Assembly: GCF_016937535.1 (NCBI RefSeq)
Contig: NZ_JAFHKK010000020.1
Location: 1 to 46,766 of the forward strand
Direction: 5' to 3'
DNA length: 46,766 nucleotides
Origin: Sulfurospirillum tamanense
GTDB lineage: Bacteria > Campylobacterota > Campylobacteria > Campylobacterales > Campylobacteraceae
Shown here in pieces: positions 28,603 to 40,898 of this stretch. The position numbers and the translations under genes were made by a program. The number at the start of each line of letters is the position of its first letter. Positions within the stretch are counted from its first letter, which is position 1. The notes beneath the pieces were generated by a model, which saw nothing but the letters and a program-made list of their open reading frames with translations, made no database searches and was not told where the DNA came from.

Positions 28603-30698
28603 CACCCTTCCTCCACAAGGCTCAAACTCACTTTGCCCCGCGCAAGGTCAATGCCGATGACACGGATGGCGGGCAAATACTGGTTCAAACTCACCACTTC
28701 CAAAGGATGCCCCACCCGCTTTGAGGAGAGTTTGGAGAGGTGAATCATCCCGTCATTTTTCAAGCCAATATCCACAAACACGCCAAAATCTACAATGTTG
28801 CGCACCACCCCTGAAACCACGCTCCCTTCTTCTAGCATCCCAATGTCGCTCACCCCCTCTTTAAACGGCAAGGGCGGCAAGGCCTCCCTGGGGTCAAAGC
28901 CTGGTTTTTGCAGCTCAAAAACGATGTCTTTGAGCGTTGCTTCGCCCGCGCCAAAGGTCGCCATAAGCCCTTCGGGCGAGGCATCTGGGTTTTTCAAGAG
29001 CGCCAGCGCAAGAGGGTAACTCTCAGGGTGCACGCCCGTGTTATCCAACGGACTTTTACCCTCTTTGATGCGCACAAATCCTGCGGCTTGCTCATAGGCT
29101 TTGGCCCCCAAGCCTTTTACCTTTAGTAAATCCGCCTTACATGTAAAGCGTCCATGGGCTTCGCGGTGAGCGACCATCGCCTTGGCGACTTTAGGGCCGA
29201 TGCCTGCCACATACCCCAACAAGGAAACCGAAGCGGAGTTAGCATCTACTCCCACGCGGTTGACCAAATCTTGCGTCACGTCTTGGAGCTTTTTTTCTAG
29301 CTGTTTTTGGTCCACATCGTGCTGATACTGCCCAATGCCAAGGGCTTTGGGGTCGATTTTCACTAACGCTGCCATAGGGTCACGCAACCGCTGGGCAATG
29401 GAAATGGCACCCCGAATACTCACATCAAGCTGCGGGTACTCTTCCGAGGCAATCTTAGAGGCCGAATAGACCGATGCACCCGCTTCTGAAACCACCGTGT
29501 AAGGCAACACCACCTCGCCTTTGGCGTTGAGCGCGGCAAAAAACTCTTGGGTTTCCCGCGAGGCTGTGCCATTGCCAATAGCCACCGCGGTGATGGCGTA
29601 GCGTTTGGCAAGTGCGACGACTTTAGCGGTCGCCCCTTGCGTGTCATTGTGGGGAGGCGTGGGGTAGATGACTTCATGGGCAAGGTAGGTTCCCTCCATG
29701 TCAATCACGGCAAGCTTACACCCCGTGCGAAAGGCGGGGTCAACGCCTAAAATGACCCGTTGTTGCACGGGCGGGCTCATGAGCAGTTGGTGGAGGTTTT
29801 TGCCAAACACGTCGATGGCGGCGGTATCGGCACGCGCTTTTAAAAGGCCGTGTACTTCGCGCTCTAAAGAGGGCAATAACAACCGCTTCAAGCCGTCTTT
29901 GTACGCCTCAAAAAGGAAGGGATTTTTGGCGTTTTTAGGAAGTTTGTACTGGTAAATGTTTGCTTCGATGCGCGCCACATCCACGACCATCTTGACGCTC
30001 AGTTGCTTTTCTTTGACCCCACGCATGAGGGCGAGGTAGCGGTGAGAAGGGATGAAGGCGACCTTTTCACGCGCATCGGCCAGAGAAACAAAAGCCCCTT
30101 TTTCGTCAAAGGTTTTGGTTTTTTTCACTTCCAAAACGCCGTGCTTTAGCATGAGCGTGCGCACCGCTTCACGCTCCCTTGGGGCATCCGCAAAACGTTC
30201 CGCGAGGATGTCCTGGGCTCCTGTCACGGCTTCTTCCACAGAAGCGACCTTTTCGCCCACGTAGGTTTTCGCCTTCTCGTAAAACATCGCCTCGTCGCCT
30301 TTTTCTAATACGTCTGCTAAGGGTTCAAGGCCTTTTTGGATGGCACTTTGGGCGCGGGAGTTCTTTTTTTCTTTAAAGGGGCGAAAAATGTCTTCCACTT
30401 CGCTGAGGGTTTGGGCAGCCTCTAAGCGGTGTTTGAGCGCGGAATCTAGCACACTGCGCTCGCTAATAAGCCTTGCCACGTCGGCTTTGCGCTCCAAAAG
30501 GTGCTTGGCACTTTCAACGATTTTTTCAAAATCGCGCAACGCTTCATCGCTCGCCCCCTCGGTCATCTCCTTGCGGTAGCGTGCGATGAAAGGCACCGTC
30601 GCCCCGCCTTCAAGGAGGGTTAAAATGTTGGTAACCGCGGTCGCACTAAGACCTGTTTGTTTGATAAGGATGTCTGTTAAGGTGTGCATCGTTTCCAT
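28602..30698 (-). CDS. tex: Tex-family transcription accessory / RNA-binding protein
   Basis: A 698-residue cytoplasmic protein matching Tex over its full length. It has an N-terminal helical domain (VPFIARYRKEMTEGASDEALRDF), a YqgF/RNase H-like domain (ILGVDPAFRTGCKLAVID), helix-hairpin-helix motifs (VAGIGPKVAKAMVAHRE) and a C-terminal S1 domain (GSVVSGVVRNIVDFGVFVDIG). Tex acts in transcription and RNA metabolism. The start may be the ATG at 30698, two bases after a TTACATGTAA, or the ATG at 30689. A perfect palindrome copy inside the gene (29137-29146) encodes Phe-Thr-Cys-Lys. A -10 box lies at 30732-30727. Confidence 0.93.
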   Translation of the reverse strand: METMHTLTDILIKQTGLSATAVTNILTLLEGGATVPFIARYRKEMTEGASDEALRDFEKIVESAKHLLERKADVARLISERSVLDSALKHRLEAAQTLSEVEDIFRPFKEKKNSRAQSAIQKGLEPLADVLEKGDEAMFYEKAKTYVGEKVASVEEAVTGAQDILAERFADAPREREAVRTLMLKHGVLEVKKTKTFDEKGAFVSLADAREKVAFIPSHRYLALMRGVKEKQLSVKMVVDVARIEANIYQYKLPKNAKNPFLFEAYKDGLKRLLLPSLEREVHGLLKARADTAAIDVFGKNLHQLLMSPPVQQRVILGVDPAFRTGCKLAVIDMEGTYLAHEVIYPTPPHNDTQGATAKVVALAKRYAITAVAIGNGTASRETQEFFAALNAKGEVVLPYTVVSEAGASVYSASKIASEEYPQLDVSIRGAISIAQRLRDPMAALVKIDPKALGIGQYQHDVDQKQLEKKLQDVTQDLVNRVGVDANSASVSLLGYVAGIGPKVAKAMVAHREAHGRFTCKADLLKVKGLGAKAYEQAAGFVRIKEGKSPLDNTGVHPESYPLALALLKNPDASPEGLMATFGAGEATLKDIVFELQKPGFDPREALPPLPFKEGVSDIGMLEEGSVVSGVVRNIVDFGVFVDIGLKNDGMIHLSKLSSKRVGHPLEVVSLNQYLPAIRVIGIDLARGKVSLSLVEEG

Positions 30699-30700
30699 TC

Positions 30701-30710
30701 TTACATGTAA
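30701..30710. repeat. TTACATGTAA palindrome at the tex start
   Basis: Perfect copy, directly upstream of the tex start codon, where the ribosome binding site would be expected. Confidence 0.9.
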
Positions 30711-30726
30711 GGGTTTTAAAGGGCGC

Positions 30727-30732
30727 ATTATA
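30727..30732 (-). promoter_or_regulatory. -10 box of tex
   Basis: TATAAT on the minus strand, about 30 bp upstream of the tex ATG at 30698. Confidence 0.5.
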
Positions 30733-30788
30733 CGCAAATTTTATTCTGGCGACCCAAAAGCCTTTCTTTTTATTCCATCAAAAAAATG

Positions 30789-30794
30789 TATAAT
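30789..30794 (+). promoter_or_regulatory. -10 box of the dicarboxylate symporter gene
   Basis: TATAAT, about 98 bp upstream of the chosen start, implying a leader of some 90 bases. Confidence 0.45.
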
Positions 30795-30891
30795 GCCTGT
30801 TACTTTAAAAAGAGGCTGTGCTGTTTTTATACACAAAAACCCGCTATTCTGGGCTCTTTTTGACTACCACTTCCACAACAAAGGATACATT

Positions 30892-32118
30892 TTGACCACA
30901 CAAAAGAAAGGCCTCATGCGTAACATCGGCGTTCAGATTGTTATTGCTATGGTCATCGGCACACTGGTTGGCGCCTTCATGGGCGAAAGTGCGGCAATCT
31001 TCGCGCCCCTTGGCACTATCTTTATTCATCTTATTAAGATGCTTGTTATCCCTTTGGTGGCCATCTCCATCATCGCTGGGGCTGCAGGGCTTGGAGACAG
31101 CCCCTCAGCGGGGAAAATTGGCGTGACTACCTTTGGGTTTTTCCTTGGAACCTCCGCGTTAGCCGTGGGGCTTGCGCTGTTTATGGGTGAAGTTTTTGGC
31201 CCAGGACGCGGGCTGGATTTGAGCAGTGTTGAGGGCATGTTTTCCACCAAATACGCCGACCAAGGGGCGCTTCCTGGGTTTTTTGACACCATCACGGGCA
31301 TGATTCCCACCAACGTGTTCCAGTCCCTCACCGATGCGAACATCTTACAAATCCTTGTCTTTTGTCTCTTTTTTGGCATCGCCATCTCTAAGCTAGAAAA
31401 AAGCAAAAGTGCGGCGGTACTTTCCCCGCTAAATGCCACCATTGACGCGTTTATTTGGATGATTCACGTGGTGATGCGCATCGCACCTCTGGGGGTTTTT
31501 GGCCTCATGGCTGACGCAGTAGGAACTTTTGGTTTTTCCATGCTAACTCTTGTGATGAAGCTTTTTATTGTTTATATAGTCGCTATTCTCATTTATGGGT
31601 TTGTATTTTACCCTTTGTTGGTCAAGTTTTTCTCCAACACCCCCGTGTTAGCATTCATGAGCGCCATGAAAAAACCCCAAGCCGTAGCCCTTTCCACCGC
31701 CTCTTCCATGGCAACCTTGCCTGTTACCATCGAAACATGTGAAAAAGAACTCGGCGTTGCCAAGTCTACCGCCGCCTTTGTCTTGCCTTTGGGGGCGACC
31801 ATCAACATGAGCGGCAATGCCATTTATTACGGTCTTGTGGCTATCTTTTTTGCCCAAGTCTTTGGGATGGAACTTGGCATGGGCGAATACATCGCCATCA
31901 TCCTCACCGCCACCATCGGTGCCATCGGCCAAGCGGGCGTGCCTGGGCCTACGTTTTTAGTCGTTGCGGTACTCATCGCCGCGGGAATTCCCATCGAGGG
32001 CTTACCCTTGTTGTTTGCCCTTGATCGCATCTTTGACATGATTCGCACCGCCCTAAACATCACCGGCGATGCCGCGTGCGCGGTTATTGTAGATAAATAC
32101 AACCCCGAATCTGCCTAA
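30892..32118 (+). CDS. Dicarboxylate/amino acid:cation symporter (DctA/GltP family)
   Basis: A 408-residue carrier of the glutamate-transporter fold. Landmarks are the serine-rich re-entrant loop ALSTASSMATLPVTIE, the sodium-site helix LPLGATINMSGNAIYY, the second hairpin GAIGQAGVPGPTFLVV, and the final helix FDMIRTALNITGDAACAV. Expected substrates are C4-dicarboxylates or acidic amino acids with Na+ or H+. The frame is open far upstream, but that extension lacks family likeness. TTG at 30892 has AAAGGA at ideal spacing; ATG at 30916 is an alternative. A terminator built from two palindrome copies follows. Confidence 0.9.
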   Translation: MTTQKKGLMRNIGVQIVIAMVIGTLVGAFMGESAAIFAPLGTIFIHLIKMLVIPLVAISIIAGAAGLGDSPSAGKIGVTTFGFFLGTSALAVGLALFMGEVFGPGRGLDLSSVEGMFSTKYADQGALPGFFDTITGMIPTNVFQSLTDANILQILVFCLFFGIAISKLEKSKSAAVLSPLNATIDAFIWMIHVVMRIAPLGVFGLMADAVGTFGFSMLTLVMKLFIVYIVAILIYGFVFYPLLVKFFSNTPVLAFMSAMKKPQAVALSTASSMATLPVTIETCEKELGVAKSTAAFVLPLGATINMSGNAIYYGLVAIFFAQVFGMELGMGEYIAIILTATIGAIGQAGVPGPTFLVVAVLIAAGIPIEGLPLLFALDRIFDMIRTALNITGDAACAVIVDKYNPESA

Positions 32119-32132
32119 GCATAAGCTTCTCT

Positions 32133-32170
32133 TGTGTCTTACATGTAAAAAAGCTTACATGTAAGACACA
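32133..32170 (+). terminator. Terminator built from two TTACATGTAA copies
   Basis: A perfect 16-bp stem whose arms each contain one full palindrome (32139-32148 and 32155-32164), extended by TGTGTC/GACACA. The loop is six bases, AAAAGC, and C plus eight T follow. A classic intrinsic terminator, 15 bases after the symporter stop. Confidence 0.9.
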
Positions 32171-32202
32171 CTTTTTTTTCTTAAAGTAACTCCCAGTATT
32201 TA

Positions 32203-32229
32203 TTTATAAATTGTTTATAAATTGTTTAC
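32203..32229 (+). repeat. Tandem 11-bp repeat in the promoter region of the envelope operon
   Basis: Two adjacent copies of TTTATAAATTG (32203-32213, 32214-32224) and the start of a third (TTTAC). The surrounding 32180-32294 is AT-rich. It also holds an ATACTT/AAGTAT inverted repeat (32237-32252) and TATGAT/ATCATA (32261-32279), the first of which may be the -10 box. Confidence 0.6.
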
Positions 32230-32294
32230 TTTTTTAATACTTTATTAAGTATGTCGGATATATGATGGCTTTTATCATACCATAAAGGCGTATT

Positions 32295-33863
32295 ATGCGT
32301 GTTATAAGTCCTTTAATCCCACCCCTCGTCCTCCTAAGCCTCTCCTCTCTTAGTGCCTCAGAAACTGTTTATCGTTTTACAAACGATTTTTACATTCAGC
32401 ATAATGAAATCACAGGCAACAGTCCCTCAAGCTCTATGCTCACTGAAGGATTTGTGTACCACAATCTTTTTACGCTCTACACTAAAGGTCAGTTTGAGGA
32501 CATAGACTACACCCTCAACGCAGGCCTCAAACTCACAGACGACAGACGAAAAGATGTTAAAAAAGCCTCTCTAATCACCCTTGCTGGCCACATCCAAAAA
32601 GGAGCGCATCAGTTACACTTGGGGGATTTTTTCAAATCCTACTCCAAATACTCCCTCAACACCTCCCTCAAAGGGGCGGCATACACCTATACCACCGAAC
32701 AAAAAGATACCTTTGAGGTTGTGTACGGTCTGGCCTATCCCCGCTGGGATAACTTCTGGGACAATGAAGTAGATTCTACGGAGCGCGAAGTTTTGGGGGT
32801 GCGTTTTAACAAAAACCTCAGCGATGCCCTTAGTATTGGAATTGACGCGGTAGCAACAGATGATTCAAACTCTGTTGTGACGGGTATCCCTTTGTATGAA
32901 ACGAAACTTTACACCATTAACTCCACCTATCGTCCCATTCCAGGGTTAAAGCTTTACGGGGAGTACTCTTACTCTGACAACGAGACACAAACCGCTACCG
33001 CTACTACCAAGCGCAACGGCACAGCGATTTTTCTTCAAGCCGTCGGCAACAAAAAGCCTAGCCGCGTACAGCTTGAATACGAGCGCATTTCACCTGATTT
33101 TAAAACCGTTACAGGCTCCGCCACGCCTGATCGCGAAAAATTCAAAGCCACATGGCGCTACATGATGACAGACACTATCACGATGAATACGGGGCTTTTG
33201 TGGTTTCGTGACAACCTTGATGGGGACAAAACAAACACTACGCACACCTATCGCCCTAACCTTGGTTTTACCTTTAAACAGGTTTTTGACAGGCGCTATG
33301 CAGTGGTGGATGTGAACTACAAATACAATCACATTGACAAAAAAACTTCCGTAACCAAAGACTCCGTTTACGACCTTAATTACCGTGACCGTTTTGGCAT
33401 TGTCCACTCAGATATGCAGGTTTCCTACACAGACTACCACACCAACAACAATACGCGCAACCAAGAAGAATGGCGTTTTAACTCTACTTTCAACACCCGC
33501 CACTCCTACAAAGACCTTGTGCTCAAACCCTCCATCATCTTTGGCACATGGGACGTAAACGATGAACTAAGCAACGGTGACAATACCTACACCCAAGCCG
33601 CCCTAGGGTTTGGTGTGGACATTCCTAAACACAAAATCGCCACCAACCTTCGCGTGGGAAAAAACCGCTCAAAAAGAGATGCAGGGGATGATTTGGACAA
33701 GGTTTTTGGGAGTTTTGATGCCCATTGGAATATGGGTGATAGGGGACAATTTAAGCGCATTATGGTCTACCTCAGGGCGCACATTAACGACCTAAGTTAT
33801 ACTACCTCCGCAAACGATTACCAAGAGCGCAGTGTGACGCTCGGTCTTCGTATGACCTTTTAA
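32295..33863 (+). CDS. Putative outer-membrane beta-barrel protein
   Basis: A 522-residue protein with a signal peptide (about 1-21, ending SLSA-SE). The mature part is rich in alternating polar/aromatic strands (for example GLKLYGEYSYSDNE and MQVSYTDYHTNN) and ends in a strand closing with Thr-Phe (LGLRMTF), the C-terminal aromatic signal for outer-membrane barrels. Some 18-22 strands look possible; this is a rough reading. AAAGG precedes the ATG. It is the first of three closely spaced genes, all with signal peptides. I do not recognise the family; such barrels in similar operons often serve export or pore functions, which is only a guess here. Confidence 0.7.
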   Translation: MRVISPLIPPLVLLSLSSLSASETVYRFTNDFYIQHNEITGNSPSSSMLTEGFVYHNLFTLYTKGQFEDIDYTLNAGLKLTDDRRKDVKKASLITLAGHIQKGAHQLHLGDFFKSYSKYSLNTSLKGAAYTYTTEQKDTFEVVYGLAYPRWDNFWDNEVDSTEREVLGVRFNKNLSDALSIGIDAVATDDSNSVVTGIPLYETKLYTINSTYRPIPGLKLYGEYSYSDNETQTATATTKRNGTAIFLQAVGNKKPSRVQLEYERISPDFKTVTGSATPDREKFKATWRYMMTDTITMNTGLLWFRDNLDGDKTNTTHTYRPNLGFTFKQVFDRRYAVVDVNYKYNHIDKKTSVTKDSVYDLNYRDRFGIVHSDMQVSYTDYHTNNNTRNQEEWRFNSTFNTRHSYKDLVLKPSIIFGTWDVNDELSNGDNTYTQAALGFGVDIPKHKIATNLRVGKNRSKRDAGDDLDKVFGSFDAHWNMGDRGQFKRIMVYLRAHINDLSYTTSANDYQERSVTLGLRMTF

Positions 33864-33873
33864 AGGATAAACC

Positions 33874-35175
33874 ATGCAAAAAAAACTCATACTAGTACTT
33901 TTAAGCCTCTTGTTTGCAAGTTCTCTTCATGCCAAATGGTGGATTTTTGGGGGCGGCGAAGAAGAGGTGGGATTTGACTACCTGTACGCCAACACTCTCT
34001 CTTTTGATGATGCGGGGCAAGAAGCCATCATGATGCGCGAAAGTTTAGACAATGGCTACTTACATGTAAGAGGCAAAGCGCGCACGGGCAAAAACCCCGT
34101 GGGTGACGTGTCAGTCTCTCTTGATGGAGGAAAAACATGGAACAAGGCCCGTTTTGAAAAAGACGGTGGGTTTAACTTCTCTTTTGAACCTGACCTTGCT
34201 CAGACCTACCATATCGTCGCCAAAGTCATCGACACCACAGGCAAAGCCAACACCCTTGAAGATGCACAAATTCGCCTAAGCTTTAGCGACCTTGATGCGT
34301 ACGGGATGATTCAAGAAACCCTCACACAGCTTAAAACCTTTTACGAGCAAGAAAACGATACAGGCTTCATGCAGTACGTGGACAGAAACTTTGAGGGCGA
34401 TGAGATGACTCTTGAACGCGCCTTGCGCAAGGATTTTTCTGCCCTTGATAACATTCAAATCGACTTTTCTATCAGTAGCGTAGCCTTTTCAAACAATCGC
34501 TACTACGCCTCCATTCTCTTTAACCGCAGCGTTTTGGCCACTAGTGATGGTACCCTCTACCAAGACAGGGGCGTTACAGAATTTTCCTTTAGTGTGGGCG
34601 AAAAAGGAGCGATGCTTCTTTCTATGAAAAATCCGCTCATCTTCGGCCTTTCTTACGCCGCAGATGTGGCAAGCGGCACAACCGCCAACGCGCAAAATAA
34701 CGAGAATTTTTTGGTAGTCAATGACAGCGGAGGAGTTTCCCAAACCTCTTTGGCAAACCTTGAAGAGGGCGGCGGGGATGATTATATGACGAGTGGAAGT
34801 TTTACCTTAAACAATAATCAAGGTTTTGATTTCACTGATGATTCCGTTACCCCAATAGACCATATGAATCTCGCTAGCTATACTGGTCATATAGGATTGT
34901 TTGAAGGAAATAGGTTTGAGACCTTAGGCGGAGCGGCGGCAAAAGAATATGGTTCTGTTAGCATTGATGGCCTCACAGTAGATGAAGCGGGATATAACGA
35001 ATTTTGGGTGGGCGACCTTGATACATTAAATTCGGACGACGTGTTGGCTATAAAATTACCAAACAATACTTATGCCCTTTTGAAAATAACCACTATTGTC
35101 AACCTAGGAGGAGGAAACTATACAATCTCCCTTGACTACAAATACAACCCCAACGGTTCGCGCTACTTCCCCTAA
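33874..35175 (+). CDS. Exported multidomain protein of unknown function
   Basis: A 433-residue protein with a signal peptide (about 1-20, SLHA-KW). Residues about 60-135 look like an Ig-type beta sandwich (VSVSLDGGKTWNKARFEKDGGF). Residues 140-222 form a mixed alpha/beta segment (FYEQENDTGFMQYVDRNF, DFSALDNIQIDF) closely resembling the C-terminal domain of the next gene product, perhaps NTF2-like. Residues 300-433 are a further beta-rich domain (SGSFTLNNNQGFDFTDD, NTYALLKITTIVN). There is no lipobox. Ten bases separate it from the barrel gene and ten from the next gene. A perfect palindrome at 34060 encodes Leu-His-Val-Arg. Confidence 0.65.
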   Translation: MQKKLILVLLSLLFASSLHAKWWIFGGGEEEVGFDYLYANTLSFDDAGQEAIMMRESLDNGYLHVRGKARTGKNPVGDVSVSLDGGKTWNKARFEKDGGFNFSFEPDLAQTYHIVAKVIDTTGKANTLEDAQIRLSFSDLDAYGMIQETLTQLKTFYEQENDTGFMQYVDRNFEGDEMTLERALRKDFSALDNIQIDFSISSVAFSNNRYYASILFNRSVLATSDGTLYQDRGVTEFSFSVGEKGAMLLSMKNPLIFGLSYAADVASGTTANAQNNENFLVVNDSGGVSQTSLANLEEGGGDDYMTSGSFTLNNNQGFDFTDDSVTPIDHMNLASYTGHIGLFEGNRFETLGGAAAKEYGSVSIDGLTVDEAGYNEFWVGDLDTLNSDDVLAIKLPNNTYALLKITTIVNLGGGNYTISLDYKYNPNGSRYFP

Positions 35176-35185
35176 GGAGAACCCT

Positions 35186-38074
35186 ATGCGCGCGCTCATT
35201 TGTCTAGCCATTGCATTTTGCCTTTGGCTTCTTCCTTTGCAAGCAGACGATGAGAGCGTGCTTCGCTCCCAACTGACTAACCAAATCCAAGATTTGGAAA
35301 ACCTCAAACCTGAGCTTTTTAAGATTATCCGTCACTGCGAAACCGAACTTCCCAACATCAGCAAAGCCAAAGGCGACATTATCAGCTATAAAGACGAGGT
35401 ACAAAGCCATCTCAACTCCAACATCGTCAAAGCCGTAGCCAGTGGCGGGATTAACCTCGCTGTAGAAATGTTTGGGGCACGCAATCAGGGCAAACTCATT
35501 GACCTAGGCACGTGGGTCGTAGGAAAAGTTGCCGAGTATGGCATGGGCAAGTCAGCTTTTTTTGCGGGTCGCCAAGCACACTACACAAGAAAGCTAGATG
35601 GCGTTAGTCAAAAACAACGAGGCATAAGCGAAAAAGTAGACATGCTTTACCGCGTTGCAAACTCTTCCGATGAGGCAATGCAAGCTTACTATAATGCAAA
35701 TGGCCGTTATCCCGAATGGGAATTAGGCGATGCGGGTGTTTTTATTCAGCGTATGCGCCTTGTTGTCCAGCATGCAAAAAGCGCCATTGCGGAGCTTGAG
35801 AGCCTTGAAGAATACTATAAAGACTTACTCAAAGACAGCCAAGAAGACCTTAAGGACTTACAAGAAGAGATTAATTTTCTACGGGATGAGCTTGCCAGAT
35901 TGCACGAAAAAGACAAGGAAGAACAACTTAAAAAACTTGAAGAACCCACCTTAACCCCAGAAGAAGAGGCGAAAGGCACATTACCAACAGCTAGCCCAAG
36001 CATTCCCTATCAGCCCGATAGAGACTGCCCTAAATTCGAGAGAGATATTTTCCAACGTCTTAGAGAAATCGGTGCTCGACTCAACAGTATGAAGTCCACA
36101 GTAGAAGCCCATAAACACCAACGTCAAGTGTATCTTCATGAATATAAAGAAAACGCCAACACGAGGTACAACGCTATTTTGGAGGAATTCAAACGCTTTA
36201 AATACCCAGAGGGTGCCGACTCTGTAGCTTTAAATGAAATCAGAAGCGGTAATTTTCCAATGATTCCCTTTGACAAACTTCTTTCAGACGCACAACGTAT
36301 ATACGAGGCATGGGAAGAGCACAATAGCTCCTACAAAGAAGCGTTACAGACTTTTGTGGAGGGCTTACTGGCAAACCTAGACACCCAACACTACGACAAC
36401 CTCATCGCCCAAGGCATAGCCAACACCCTTGTTGCAGAAAGAGAGTACGTAGCTTTCCACAACAAGTGTGTTTCACGGCCCCCTATTACCAACGCCATTG
36501 GCCACCATGATCTCTATTTTGTCTCTAATGCCGCCATTGATGACTTGCGCGCTTTTAGGATTAAACTTTTAAAACAGATTCAAAGCATCGAGCAACGCTT
36601 AGAAGTATCCGAGAAAGAGCACAAAGAAAAAATGGAAGCATTACCTAGGTACTTTGCCAAACGAAAATCAGAAATGCGGGATGAAATTTCCCGCTACCAA
36701 GACCATTTAAGCAGACTCGCGCAACGTCAAGCCGCTGTAGAAGCCCTCAAGCGAAAGCTTTTGGCCAAGTACAAAAGTGCTCGCTTTACGCCGGTTAAAA
36801 ATGGCGACCTTACCACGTACCAACTCACCTTTGATGTTTCCTTGGAAAAAGGGGTTTGTCAAGCCATTAGTGCCATCCATAAACAAACAGCAACGGGCGA
36901 TATCGCCCTTATTAGCGAACTCCAACATGAGTTTTCTATCGCCGTCAATGCCCTTTTACACACAGGAGTTCCTGGCTACTTCCCCCACCATGCCTTTTTT
37001 GAGCTCGAACCGTCAAATTTTGAGGAAGCATACAAAGCGCACAATGCCCTAAACCTCAACAGCACGAACAGTGGTTTAATACTTAACAACACTAACTACA
37101 TCCTTGAAAGCCTCGAAAAAGAAAACTTTTTTCTTCTTGCTTCTTTGTATCCCGATTCTGCGTTTAAGCGCATTTGGGACGCACAGCAAAAAGCCCTAGT
37201 GGAGATGAACAGCGCCCTAAAAAACCTCTCCAGTGAGCTTAAAAATGCCCTTTCTATGGAACGCATCCATGACCAATGGGCAGAATCTTATGAAACACAG
37301 TTCAAGAAAAGAAAAGAAGAATTTGAGAGAGACCTTATCTGTTTAACAAGCGACAACCCCGCCAAATCAACCCTTGAGGGGCTTCTTGAGGAAATCGAAG
37401 AGATGGCTGGAAAGGTGAAACTCAAACCAACTTTCCTAGACGCAAGTGCCTTGTTGGATGAGGTGCGCACCCTGCATCAAAATGTTGAAAATTTTTATAT
37501 CGACGACACCTCTGCGTATGTGGCGCAATACAAAGCCTACATGGAGCAGCATGAACAACTAGATACACGCATCAATGTAACCGATGCCAACAAGCTTTTA
37601 TCAAGCGACAAGCGCGACCTTAATACCTTGCTTCAAAAAATCCAAGCACGACTTTCAGCCCATACCGAACACATGGCAACCCGAAAGGAAATTGCCTCTA
37701 TTGAGCCTGTCGAAATCCTCTACCAATCTTTTGCCCAATATTACTCTAACAAAAACCTCTCTTCACTAATGGCCTTGCTTTCGGATGATTGGAGTAGTAG
37801 TAGCGACGGGACGACATTGATGGACTTAGAAGATACCTTAAGCAATAGTTTTTCTATATTCGATGACATTCAGTGCGTCATTGACAGCTTAAGTATTCAG
37901 CCCCAAGGGAAAGACCGTTTTTTTGTCTCCTACACCATCACTATTGAGGGGCACATGTATGCTAATGACATTCGCCATTTGGAAAAATCTTCCGTTATTG
38001 AAGAAGTAGGGATCGAGGAGGGAAAAGCCCGTATTCTTAAAACAACAGGTGGACGGTTTTGGCCCACGCGCTAA
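35186..38074 (+). CDS. Large exported coiled-coil protein of unknown function
   Basis: A 962-residue protein with a signal peptide (about 1-20, LPLQA-DD). Most of it is helical. A strong coiled coil lies at about 195-255 (ELESLEEYYKDLLKDSQEDL onward), followed by a Pro/Thr-rich hinge (255-280, PTLTPEEEAKGTLPTASPS). Further helical stretches lie around 285-350, 480-540 and 690-830. The last 120 residues resemble residues 140-222 of the preceding protein. The ATG at 35186 follows AAGGAGA and a ten-base gap; upstream codons within the previous gene are rejected. A terminator follows. I recognise no family. It could be an elongated periplasmic adaptor working with the barrel protein. Confidence 0.65.
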   Translation: MRALICLAIAFCLWLLPLQADDESVLRSQLTNQIQDLENLKPELFKIIRHCETELPNISKAKGDIISYKDEVQSHLNSNIVKAVASGGINLAVEMFGARNQGKLIDLGTWVVGKVAEYGMGKSAFFAGRQAHYTRKLDGVSQKQRGISEKVDMLYRVANSSDEAMQAYYNANGRYPEWELGDAGVFIQRMRLVVQHAKSAIAELESLEEYYKDLLKDSQEDLKDLQEEINFLRDELARLHEKDKEEQLKKLEEPTLTPEEEAKGTLPTASPSIPYQPDRDCPKFERDIFQRLREIGARLNSMKSTVEAHKHQRQVYLHEYKENANTRYNAILEEFKRFKYPEGADSVALNEIRSGNFPMIPFDKLLSDAQRIYEAWEEHNSSYKEALQTFVEGLLANLDTQHYDNLIAQGIANTLVAEREYVAFHNKCVSRPPITNAIGHHDLYFVSNAAIDDLRAFRIKLLKQIQSIEQRLEVSEKEHKEKMEALPRYFAKRKSEMRDEISRYQDHLSRLAQRQAAVEALKRKLLAKYKSARFTPVKNGDLTTYQLTFDVSLEKGVCQAISAIHKQTATGDIALISELQHEFSIAVNALLHTGVPGYFPHHAFFELEPSNFEEAYKAHNALNLNSTNSGLILNNTNYILESLEKENFFLLASLYPDSAFKRIWDAQQKALVEMNSALKNLSSELKNALSMERIHDQWAESYETQFKKRKEEFERDLICLTSDNPAKSTLEGLLEEIEEMAGKVKLKPTFLDASALLDEVRTLHQNVENFYIDDTSAYVAQYKAYMEQHEQLDTRINVTDANKLLSSDKRDLNTLLQKIQARLSAHTEHMATRKEIASIEPVEILYQSFAQYYSNKNLSSLMALLSDDWSSSSDGTTLMDLEDTLSNSFSIFDDIQCVIDSLSIQPQGKDRFFVSYTITIEGHMYANDIRHLEKSSVIEEVGIEEGKARILKTTGGRFWPTR

Positions 38075-38084
38075 CTCTTTTTAG

Positions 38085-38115
38085 GCCTTACATATAAACC
38101 CTTTACATGTAAGGC
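38085..38115 (+). terminator. Terminator of the envelope operon, using one TTACATGTAA copy
   Basis: A 9-bp stem GCCTTACAT/ATGTAAGGC with a 13-base loop, followed by five T. The right arm is part of a perfect palindrome copy (38103-38112); the left arm is a decayed copy (TTACATATAA). Confidence 0.8.
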
Positions 38116-38161
38116 TTTTTGAAAATATTTTAATTATTGCTTAAATTTAGATATATTTTGG

Positions 38162-38167
38162 TATAAT
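38162..38167 (+). promoter_or_regulatory. -10 box of the helicase gene
   Basis: TATAAT preceded by an AT-rich stretch; it implies a leader of about 57 bases, as is usual for cold-regulated helicase genes. No regulator is visible. Confidence 0.55.
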
Positions 38168-38230
38168 CGTTCAAATTTCGACCAATCTAGCCCGCGTGTT
38201 TGCTACATTGATCTACTAGGAACCCTTTAC

Positions 38231-39688
38231 ATGACTACCACATTCGAATCTTTTGCCTTAGATGCAGCTATTTTTAAAGCTGTTCAAGAAGCCGGCTTTA
38301 AAGAGCCAAGCCCTATCCAGCAACAAGCCATTCCCCTTGTTTTAGAAGGGCACGACATGGTTGCCCAAGCCCAAACAGGTACGGGAAAAACCGCTGCCTT
38401 TGCTCTACCTATCCTTAGCAAGGTTGACCCTCGTGAAAAAGGTGTTCACGTTCTTGTTATCACCCCTACCCGCGAACTTGCTACCCAAGTCAGTGATGAA
38501 ATCTACATGCTTGGACGTTTTAAAGGGTTCAAAACCGTTACCGTTTATGGAGGTAGCTCCTACACGCGCCAAATGAAGCTCATCGAAGCGGGTGCGAGTG
38601 TGGTTGTAGCAACCCCTGGACGAATGCTAGACCTTCTTAAAAACAACCGCCTCAAAGACTTCAACCCTTCTGTTGTAGTGTTAGACGAAGCAGATGAGAT
38701 GCTTGACATGGGCTTTTTGGACGATATTAAAGAGATTTTTACCTACCTCCCAAGCTCGCGCCAAACCATGCTTTTTTCGGCCACCATGCCTGAACCCATT
38801 AAACAATTGGCTAAAAAAATTCTCAAAGAACCAAAATTTGTCAGCGTGACACCTGCGAACATGACCACCAACGTGGACATCGAACAGTGCTATTACGTCA
38901 TTGAAGAGTGGGAGCGCGATGACGCGGTTATCCGCTTGCTTGACACCCTAGACCCCGACAAAGCCATCATGTTTTGCCGTACCAAAAAAGAGGTAGACAT
39001 GCTCACCACCAAGCTCACGGCTGGAGGTTTTGCAGTCAAAGGCTTGCACGGTGACATGGAACAACCTCAGCGCGAAGAAGTCATCAAAGCCTTCCGTTTT
39101 TCCAATATTGACTTGCTTGTCGCCACCGACGTAGCCGCGCGCGGACTCAACGTGAAAGAAATCAGCCACGTCATCAACGTGCACATTCCTTTTGACCCAG
39201 AAAGCTATGTGCACCGCATTGGCAGAACTGGACGTGCGGGCAAAAAAGGGATGGCCATCACCTTGTGTACACCCATGGAGTACAACTCTATCCAGCGCAT
39301 TGGTAAAAAAGTGGGTACCAACATTGAACACCGTGTGCTCCCCACCCGCGGAGAGCTTCAAAAAAGCCGTTTAAGTAACCTTGCGCGCACCATCGAACAA
39401 GCGCCCTTAAACGAAAATGCCCCTGCAGTACTGACGGTTCTTGAAAACGAAACGGACCTTGCCAACATCGCTCTTAAAGCTATCTCGCTTTTACTCGAAC
39501 AAGAAAAAGCCAATGGCCCCGAAAAAATCGGACTAGATGAGCAAACTTTTGCTAAGGTCATCAAACGCTTGGCTGGACGTACAGATTCTAAAAATCGCGG
39601 CGGCTTCCGCAACCGTCGCCCCTCAGGCGGTGGTGGAAGAAGTTCAAGCGGTGGACGCAGTGATTATAAAGGCGGGGGACGCCGCTAG
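38231..39688 (+). CDS. DEAD-box RNA helicase
   Basis: A 485-residue helicase with the full motif set: Q motif (FKEPSPIQQQAIP), Walker A AQTGTGKT (47-54), PTRELA, TPGR, DEAD (VVVLDEADEML), SAT (LFSATMP), and in the second domain ARGLNV and HRIGRTGRAGKKG. A Gly/Arg/Ser-rich tail (after about residue 455) should bind RNA. It unwinds RNA duplexes in ribosome assembly or mRNA decay. The CsdA/DeaD and RhlE groups cannot be separated by eye; the length and RGG-like tail fit either. AGGA lies nine bases before the ATG. Confidence 0.93.
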   Translation: MTTTFESFALDAAIFKAVQEAGFKEPSPIQQQAIPLVLEGHDMVAQAQTGTGKTAAFALPILSKVDPREKGVHVLVITPTRELATQVSDEIYMLGRFKGFKTVTVYGGSSYTRQMKLIEAGASVVVATPGRMLDLLKNNRLKDFNPSVVVLDEADEMLDMGFLDDIKEIFTYLPSSRQTMLFSATMPEPIKQLAKKILKEPKFVSVTPANMTTNVDIEQCYYVIEEWERDDAVIRLLDTLDPDKAIMFCRTKKEVDMLTTKLTAGGFAVKGLHGDMEQPQREEVIKAFRFSNIDLLVATDVAARGLNVKEISHVINVHIPFDPESYVHRIGRTGRAGKKGMAITLCTPMEYNSIQRIGKKVGTNIEHRVLPTRGELQKSRLSNLARTIEQAPLNENAPAVLTVLENETDLANIALKAISLLLEQEKANGPEKIGLDEQTFAKVIKRLAGRTDSKNRGGFRNRRPSGGGGRSSSGGRSDYKGGGRR

Positions 39689-39700
39689 GCCTCCCTTTCC

Positions 39701-39724
39701 ACCGACGCTAATTGCGGCGTCGGT
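39701..39724. terminator. Possible terminator hairpin between the helicase and nspC
   Basis: An 8-bp stem ACCGACGC/GCGTCGGT with an 8-base loop, overlapping the nspC stop codon. No T-run follows in either direction, so it is weakly supported. Confidence 0.4.
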
Positions 39725-40859
39725 ACTCCTCGTATCCAAACTCCTTCACCACTTCAAATCGCCCATCTTTTCGCAACACACCCAAGTCGGGTAATTTAAT
39801 GCCATTAAAGGTCGTATTTTTCACGATGGTGTAGTGAATCATGTCTTCAAAAATGAGTTTTTGCCCTACATGTAAAGGCGCGTCAAAACTGTAATCCCCC
39901 ATGATATCTCCCGCCAAACAGGTGTTACCTCCAAGACGGTACGTGTAAGCTTTCTCACCCGCCTCGCCCGCTCCTCGAATCTGCGCGCGGTAAGGCATGG
40001 CAAGGGTGTCAGGCATGTGGGCTTCGGCAGAGGTGTCTAGGATGGCGATGTTCATGCCGTTTTCCACGATGTCAAGCACTGATGCCACCAATGGCCCTGT
40101 TTGCCAGCCTACGGCTTCACCAGGTTCTAGGTAGACAGGGATGTTGTTGTACCGCGCGCGAAAGGCGCGAATAACGCGGATAAGCCCTTCCACGTCGTAA
40201 TCTTCGCGGGTGATGTGGTGCCCACCCCCAAAGTTAATCCAACGCATTTGCGGGATAAACGCACCAAAGTTTGCCTCAAACCCCTCCAATACCGCTTCGA
40301 GTGCGTCTACATTTTGCTCGCACAGTGCGTGAAAATGCAACCCTTCAATCCCTTCAAGTTGCTCAGGCCGAAACTGCGCACGGGTGATGCCAAGGCGACT
40401 GTAAAGCCCACACGGGTTGTACAAATCCGCAGGAGACGCCGAAACCTCAGGATTAACCCGCAAGCCACACGAGACCCTCTCCTTGGCAAGCGCGCGAAAT
40501 TTCTCCCACTGGGCGAAGGAGTTAAAAACCACATGGTCGCTGATGGAGAGAATTTCTTCAAATTCGCTTTCTTTAAACGCGGGCGAATAAGTGTGGGTTT
40601 CTTTGCCCATCACCTCATGGGAAAGTTTGGCTTCGTGAAGCCCACTCGCAGTACACCCGTGCAGGTATTTTCCCACCCTATCAAACAGGGGCGTAAAAGC
40701 AAAGCCTTTGAGTGCCAAAAGAATTTTTGCTCCCGTTTGTTCTTGCACGTAGGCTAAACGCTTGAGGTTTTCCTCCAAAAGCGCTTCTTCACACACGTAA
40801 CACGGCGTGGGGATTTGGTCTAGGACTTTAGCAATGGCAGAGTGTTTTTGGAGTTGCAT
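39708..40859 (-). CDS. nspC: Carboxynorspermidine decarboxylase
   Basis: A 383-residue PLP enzyme of the alanine-racemase-fold decarboxylase group. The PLP lysine is in LLALKGFAF (Lys51). Other landmarks are INFGGGHHI (phosphate site), YLEPGEAVGWQTG and a GNTCLAGDIMGDY segment that supplies the second-subunit catalytic Cys. It converts carboxynorspermidine or carboxyspermidine to norspermidine or spermidine. It lies downstream of the matching dehydrogenase gene and an SDR gene, and has its own TATAAT box 20 bp upstream. A near-copy of the palindrome encodes Leu-His-Val-Gly. Confidence 0.94.
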   Translation of the reverse strand: MQLQKHSAIAKVLDQIPTPCYVCEEALLEENLKRLAYVQEQTGAKILLALKGFAFTPLFDRVGKYLHGCTASGLHEAKLSHEVMGKETHTYSPAFKESEFEEILSISDHVVFNSFAQWEKFRALAKERVSCGLRVNPEVSASPADLYNPCGLYSRLGITRAQFRPEQLEGIEGLHFHALCEQNVDALEAVLEGFEANFGAFIPQMRWINFGGGHHITREDYDVEGLIRVIRAFRARYNNIPVYLEPGEAVGWQTGPLVASVLDIVENGMNIAILDTSAEAHMPDTLAMPYRAQIRGAGEAGEKAYTYRLGGNTCLAGDIMGDYSFDAPLHVGQKLIFEDMIHYTIVKNTTFNGIKLPDLGVLRKDGRFEVVKEFGYEEYRRRN

Positions 40860-40878
40860 AAGGGGCCTTTTTGGTCGA

Positions 40879-40884
40879 ATTATA
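40879..40884 (-). promoter_or_regulatory. -10 box of nspC
   Basis: TATAAT on the minus strand in the 39-bp gap between the SDR gene and nspC, suggesting an internal promoter. Confidence 0.45.
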
Positions 40885-40898
40885 ACGCAATTTTAGGA

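Follow-up and report, generated by a model that had tools for sequence, protein, structure and literature searches.

A conserved three-gene set of Sulfurospirillum tamanense encoding a predicted outer-membrane barrel: a candidate export or display platform with tail-sorted cargo

Among the described systems closest to the locus reported here, FimD of the chaperone-usher pathway (FimD/PapC) is a protein exporter, ushers working without an energy source (no ATP), and MtrB is a barrel that encloses another protein. In type IX secretion, which likewise employs a very large barrel (SprA), cargo is defined by a constant C-terminal domain carried on variable N-termini. Two-partner secretion (TpsB/TpsA) also has the gene for a barrel beside one for a giant cargo. 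The set described here, found in a window of 46,766 bp (the whole stretch of DNA analysed) from S. tamanense, may by analogy be said to resemble usher or type IX systems in its logic, that of a large barrel with tail-sorted cargo, but is a member of neither. What is new is the family of genes and how it is organised; its folds are already known and its function is predicted.

The set consists of three genes on the + strand, B (32295-33863), P2 (33874-35175) and P3 (35186-38074), whose products measure 522, 433 and 962 aa, with gaps of 10 bp between B and P2 and 10 bp between P2 and P3, and good ribosome-binding sites. Classical signal peptides, ending in ..SLSA, ..SLHA or ..LQA as judged by inspection of the sequence alone, are present on all three products, and neither an inner-membrane protein nor an ATPase is encoded within the set. 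The preliminary description had already delimited these tightly spaced genes correctly, and it was also right about the signal peptides and the missing inner-membrane component. For P3, the start was assigned to the ATG at 35186, preceded by AAGGAG, which yields 962 aa; the mechanical list of open reading frames runs back to a TTG. A symporter-like gene ending at 32118 lies on the 5' side of the set and a DEAD-box helicase gene starting at 38231 on the 3' side, both named by sequence inspection. The features of the locus are as follows.

32112-38084, no strand: segment absent from the congener G001, which has 26 bp in its place
32133-32178, + strand: terminator of the upstream symporter gene, with two copies of TTACATGTAA; the terminator scan gives 32133-32170
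32179-32294, + strand: AT-rich leader (26% GC), presumed promoter region
32295-33863, + strand: B, outer-membrane beta-barrel, from the open reading frame, AF2 model, Foldseek and orthologues
32613-32675, + strand: conserved GD motif of B, LHLGDFFKSYSKYSLNTSLKG (alignment A8)
33874-35175, + strand: P2, adaptor candidate, with signal peptide, KWWIFGGGEEEV, Ig-like and NTF2-like domains, and a C-terminal beta domain ending in DYKYNPNGSRYF
33934-33951, + strand: KWWIFG motif of P2, right behind the predicted signal peptide and kept in distant P2 proteins (alignment A9)
33970-34287, + strand: Ig-like domain of P2, residues 33-138, of the sulfite-oxidase dimerisation-domain type
34297-34632, + strand: NTF2-like domain of P2, residues 142-253, from AF2, Foldseek and homology to the P3 tail
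34651-35172, + strand: C-terminal beta domain of P2 (AF2), common to the P2 proteins of loci L085, L086, L087 and L095
35186-38074, + strand: P3, helical protein with signal peptide, its N-terminal part of about 640 aa without detected relatives
37703-38071, + strand: C-terminal NTF2-like tail of P3, about 120 residues, the domain that stays constant across P3 proteins (alignment A6)
38085-38120, + strand: probable terminator after P3, an inverted repeat GCCTTACATATAA-accct-TTACATGTAAGGC followed by TTTTT, seen by eye

The expression signals proposed earlier fared unevenly. The leader of B is AT-rich, as had been claimed, but the promoter scan returned no consensus site above chance and none upstream of B; similarly, the claimed terminator is visible downstream of P3, but the inverted repeat and T-run were missed by the terminator scan.

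A separate feature of the region is the perfect palindrome TTACATGTAA, the commonest 10-mer of the window, with 19 sites in 46.8 kb against 0.07 expected (0 of 100 shuffles), for example at 1452, 2150, 5397, 32139, 32155, 34060 and 38103. About half of the sites are intergenic, and some pairs build terminators. In a count covering the window and the loci collected below, the palindrome was frequent in both G001 and Sulfurospirillum UBA2217 (with 10 copies in 20 kb for the latter), whereas most of the other loci examined had few copies or none. It may be analogous to HIP1 or to DNA-uptake sequences; a literature search recognised no paper describing it.

Fold predictions for B and P2 carry good confidence. 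For B, the AF2 model (pLDDT 88.4) comprises 26 strands in an uninterrupted series, with a C-terminal F and without a plug, periplasmic or other extra domain, in agreement with the outer-membrane barrel announced in the preliminary description; the model likely represents a single wide barrel. The top PDB matches retrieved by Foldseek were FimD (E 3.8e-9) and MtrB, with AlgE also among the matches, and the highest TM-score, 0.57, was obtained with MtrB (6r2q_B) at about 10% identity. The likeness to FimD and MtrB lies at the level of fold and not of sequence (about 10% identity), and large barrels resemble one another. None of the profiles in Pfam, NCBIfam, PADLOC and PHROGs claims B. The usher barrel is comparable in its large size and, as we assume, in carrying a GD-type motif early in the barrel, as B does, where G110, D111, Y119 and G127 are invariant across 24 barrels (alignment A8). 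However, B lacks the usher plug, N-terminal and C-terminal domains and has no usher match in Pfam/NCBIfam, and neither a periplasmic chaperone nor Ig-like donor-strand pilins occur in the sets, whose P3 cargo is helical; besides B, P2 and P3, the sets contain NTF2 and TPR proteins and a few small open reading frames without assignment. Two-partner secretion differs in that B has no POTRA domains and P3 no N-terminal TPS domain.

In P2, the Ig-like domain and the two further domains that had been proposed are supported by the AF2 model, by Foldseek and by a sub-threshold HMM match. The Ig-like domain resembles SorT (Foldseek 1.2e-6; HMM 6.2e-6, far below the model cut-off), the best sub-threshold profile match in Pfam/NCBIfam being the C-terminal Ig domain of sulfite dehydrogenases; apart from such weak Ig-type matches, P2 was assigned to no family in these collections, and PADLOC and PHROGs returned nothing. 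In the AF2 model the middle domain folds as three helices followed by a curved four-strand sheet, as in the NTF2-like superfamily, and superposes on 3hx8/3rob with TM-scores of 0.73-0.75 (Foldseek; several of the matched proteins span 120-130 aa). The overall P2 model (pLDDT 80, pTM 0.49) leaves the arrangement of the domains uncertain.

P3 has no profile match in Pfam, NCBIfam, PADLOC or PHROGs; with B and P3 both unclaimed by these four collections, the earlier failure to match the set to a known system stands. The length of 962 residues and the helical character of P3, earlier presented as a giant coiled coil, were borne out, the hydrophobic periodicity at 100 degrees lying 6.8 SD above shuffles, but the label itself goes too far: heptad bias exceeds the 99% shuffle level in just 8 of 130 windows, so that the coiled coil is patchy. 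No strongly hydrophobic segment follows the signal peptide in the P3 of the window; several of its relatives carry one hydrophobic Gly-rich stretch around residues 120-200.

The set is patchily distributed. Single-protein searches of the 60 nearest genomes retrieved none of B, P2 and P3, a 19-bit P3 match and a short Ig match being noise. In G001, the single congener compared, one contig matches the window at 30310-32111 and 38085-40893 with 26 bp between, thus representing an empty site. Across 328 genomes of the class, P2 found one full orthologue, in Sulfurospirillum sp. UBA2217 (G262), whose locus L035 holds all three genes in the same order, B being 66% and P2 59% identical to the window proteins; most weak P2 matches of this search involve the Ig stretch alone, inside proteins of ~400 aa, as sulfite-oxidase-type proteins would be expected to show, and do not represent kin of P2. 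When 317 genomes from the phylum to which the Desulfobacteraceae MAG G421 belongs were searched with a profile, this recovered window-type sets in G728, G489 and G575 (barrel identity 38-41%) together with weaker barrel relatives, several of which adjoin Ig or NTF2 proteins. With the P3 tail as query, G764 and G884 were also recovered, as was a P3 of G697. Two genomes of the Sulfurospirillum family and four on the Desulfobacterota side were recorded as carrying homologous sets. A plasmid collection gave no match to the set, and the barrel, P2 NTF2 and P3 tail profiles found no relative among PDB sequences.

We term A-type those loci that combine an A-clade barrel, a P2 with a WWIFG-type motif, Ig and NTF2 domains, and a P3 with an NTF2-like tail. 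Seven loci have this composition, namely the window, L035, L118 (G884), L120 (G764), L085/L121 (G728), L086 (G489) and L087 (G575), and G697 is an eighth A-type genome with the parts split over two contigs (L095, L122). B adjoins P2 in 7 of 7 loci. The order B-P2-P3 is found in the window, L035, L118 and L087, one extra gene separates P2 from P3 in L120 and L086, and L085 reads P3-P2-B. Three protein families without a curated model thus form one conserved unit, which would hold even should the export proposal made below prove mistaken. Conserved gene order in relatives and co-occurrence of the three families had been set as tests in the preliminary description; the order is kept in another phylum-level group, and profile searches place the families together in the seven loci and the split one. 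Two further observations concern individual loci: a secreted TPR protein is encoded among the P3 genes of two Desulfobacterota-side loci (L085:803-2032 and L086:10551-11828), and the G884 barrel gene (L118:13584-15172, - strand) is frameshifted, possibly through a MAG assembly error.

P3 constitutes a modular family with a constant tail and a variable N-terminus. Four genomes hold two to four P3 copies per locus (four around the barrel in G489, three in G728, two each in G575 and G884), and the tails of same-locus pairs show identities of 58-80% within G489 and G728 and of 43% within G575. Some N-termini are related to one another, and others share nothing detectable: in G489, a 122-aa stretch covering the tails of L086:197 and L086:3345, 64% identical, is the sole detectable similarity of the pair. 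The UBA2217 P3, with 1226 aa, aligns to the window P3 over its last 333 residues (38%) and best over the last 120 (62%). When 11 genomes were tested together, the six with an A-type barrel all had the tail and the remaining five had none; its place was always the barrel locus except in G697, where it sits on a short contig apart. Two further searches found it in 2 of 155 and 2 of 44 genomes, all of them A-type. In G764 both tail matches fall at the ends of contigs, and a single P3 has probably been divided between them. The tail profile also matches the NTF2 domain of most P2 proteins (E 4e-5 to 2e-9), placing tail and domain in one fold family, as well as stand-alone NTF2 proteins in two loci.

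The barrel profile extends to further loci in Campylobacterota and Desulfobacteraceae MAGs, here termed B-type, some of which are cut by contig ends. Their barrel and NTF2-like domain are homologous to those of the A-type sets and they share the same kind of Ig-like domain, but a giant beta payload replaces P3, and a two-component system is often adjacent. The gene order is a secreted NTF2-CARDB protein, the barrel, a giant protein of 2.7-3.1k aa and an FN3 protein. Close to its N-terminus the giant carries an Ig-like domain, and it also has a DUF6603-like part whose match falls short of the Pfam cut-off; a literature search on DUF6603 turned up nothing. None of three B-type genomes tested contained a P3 tail. 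The barrel tree unites the eight P3-linked barrels in a single group (99/97; 0 of 500 shuffles were equally clustered), with the G697 barrel as a long branch at its base and the frameshifted G884 barrel entered as its two halves, and ten B-type barrels form a separate group (100/100). Payload type therefore follows barrel clade: the payload changes and the candidate platform remains.

Several features accompany these relatives. Giant secreted proteins with repeats adjoin the B-type barrel in L036:3518-11581 (- strand), L042:10826-19027, L047, L049, L052, L053 and L054, often accompanied by the FN3 protein. A histidine kinase/response-regulator-like pair, likely a regulator of B-type sets, lies 5' of several of them (L042:5698-8156, L049:6522-8971, L052:5785-8246 and L036:14834-17346). 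The weaker barrel relatives in L096, L097, L098 and L090-L092 adjoin NTF2- or Ig/NTF2-domain proteins, with genes resembling ECF sigma and anti-sigma factors nearby. The barrel match in L043 was a chance match to a two-partner secretion locus, and that in L044 is probably also due to chance.

We tentatively favour, at close to an even chance, a reading in which B, P2 and P3 constitute an undescribed outer-membrane export or display platform with cargo docking by a C-terminal tail. B would provide a wide, unplugged barrel in the outer membrane, and P2 would be placed at the periplasmic opening of this barrel or inside its lumen by way of the WWIFG-type N-terminus and the Ig-like domain, serving both as a plug and as an adaptor. 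The cargo would be P3, a long helical Sec-secreted protein whose NTF2-like tail is captured by the homologous domain of P2; members of this fold family often dimerise. P3 might then pass through B, or stay tail-anchored with its helical part outside, and the various N-termini on one tail would be various surface filaments or adhesins served by a single platform. Direct P2-P3 and P2-B contacts, the direction of transport and the surface exposure of P3 are thus predictions that we infer from the arrangement. A platform with cargo would account for the barrel beside P2 in every complete A-type locus, for multi-copy proteins of constant tail and variable body only where an A-type barrel occurs, for the common fold family of P3 tail and P2 domain, and for the other giant payload of the sister clade on a like barrel and domains. 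The set has no evident energy source. In type IX secretion the cargo is similarly built, but no type IX component was recognised in the set, the platform consists of two genes, and the P3 tail is NTF2-like and not the type IX sorting domain, models of which match neither the window P3 (Pfam/NCBIfam) nor its relatives (Pfam).

Other functions can be envisaged for the same genes. P3 might be a helical strut of a periplasmic scaffold, its tail resting on P2 under B and linking the outer membrane to peptidoglycan or the inner membrane, a proposal to which the helical nature of P3, the lack of a strongly hydrophobic segment after the signal peptide in the window protein and the TPR protein added in two loci would be congenial; the Foldseek matches of P2 with NTF2-like domains moreover include the peptidoglycan enzymes Pgp2 and Bd1075. 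A strut, however, is not expected to diversify its N-terminus among neighbours of the same locus or to give way to a giant beta protein in a sister clade, and the patchy distribution also speaks against it; we consider a scaffold unlikely although worth keeping in view, as it explains the helical shape but leaves the diversification of P3 unexplained. That diversification is equally unaccounted for if B is an AlgE/LptD-type conduit for polysaccharide or lipid with P3 as periplasmic guide, which we regard as improbable: AlgE is among the Foldseek matches and the LptD barrel has 26 strands as well (PMC11494523), but the A-type sets show no evident glycosyltransferase, no polymerase and no partner for the inner membrane.

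Contact-dependent effector delivery would readily explain the variable N-termini, as toxins or membrane-active parts shown by the constant tail, since this combination is typical of polymorphic cargo, and the Gly-rich stretch near residues 120-200 of several P3 proteins would suit it. It is nevertheless quite improbable, because no obvious immunity-like gene stands beside the P3 genes among the listed open reading frames; in addition, Pfam gives no toxin domain in the P3 relatives, PADLOC finds nothing and the window P3 lacks such a hydrophobic stretch. With MtrAB(C), B shares the 26 predicted strands and its best TM-score, making a barrel that encloses a partner a plausible idea, but a role as MtrB-like sheath of an electron conduit, or as uptake porin, is very improbable: B matches no MtrB/PioB profile and has no plug domain, sequence inspection detects no CXXCH haem motif in P2 or P3, and no multihaem protein belongs to the set. 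Toxin delivery, glycan export and electron transfer are disfavoured because each misses its defining genes.

The platform-plus-cargo proposal supports and refines the multi-gene undescribed system suggested earlier, in that the P3 tail is constant and the barrel family is a larger one, of which the trio makes up a single branch. It is possible, though short of an even chance, that this family represents an unrecognised class of outer-membrane protein export or display in Campylobacterota and Desulfobacterota, in which a 26-strand barrel lacking a plug, together with an adaptor of Ig and NTF2 domains, would serve interchangeable giant payloads, tail-sorted helical P3 proteins in one clade and Ig-headed beta giants in the other. 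Searching the literature by text turned up no account of a set like this one, an unnamed system being hard to find by words. The tail (alignment A6) and the barrel profile (A4/A8) offer handles for finding more cargo. If the proposal is true, sulfur-cycling lineages would possess a secretion or display route that consists of just two parts, barrel and adaptor, and has a defined sorting tail.
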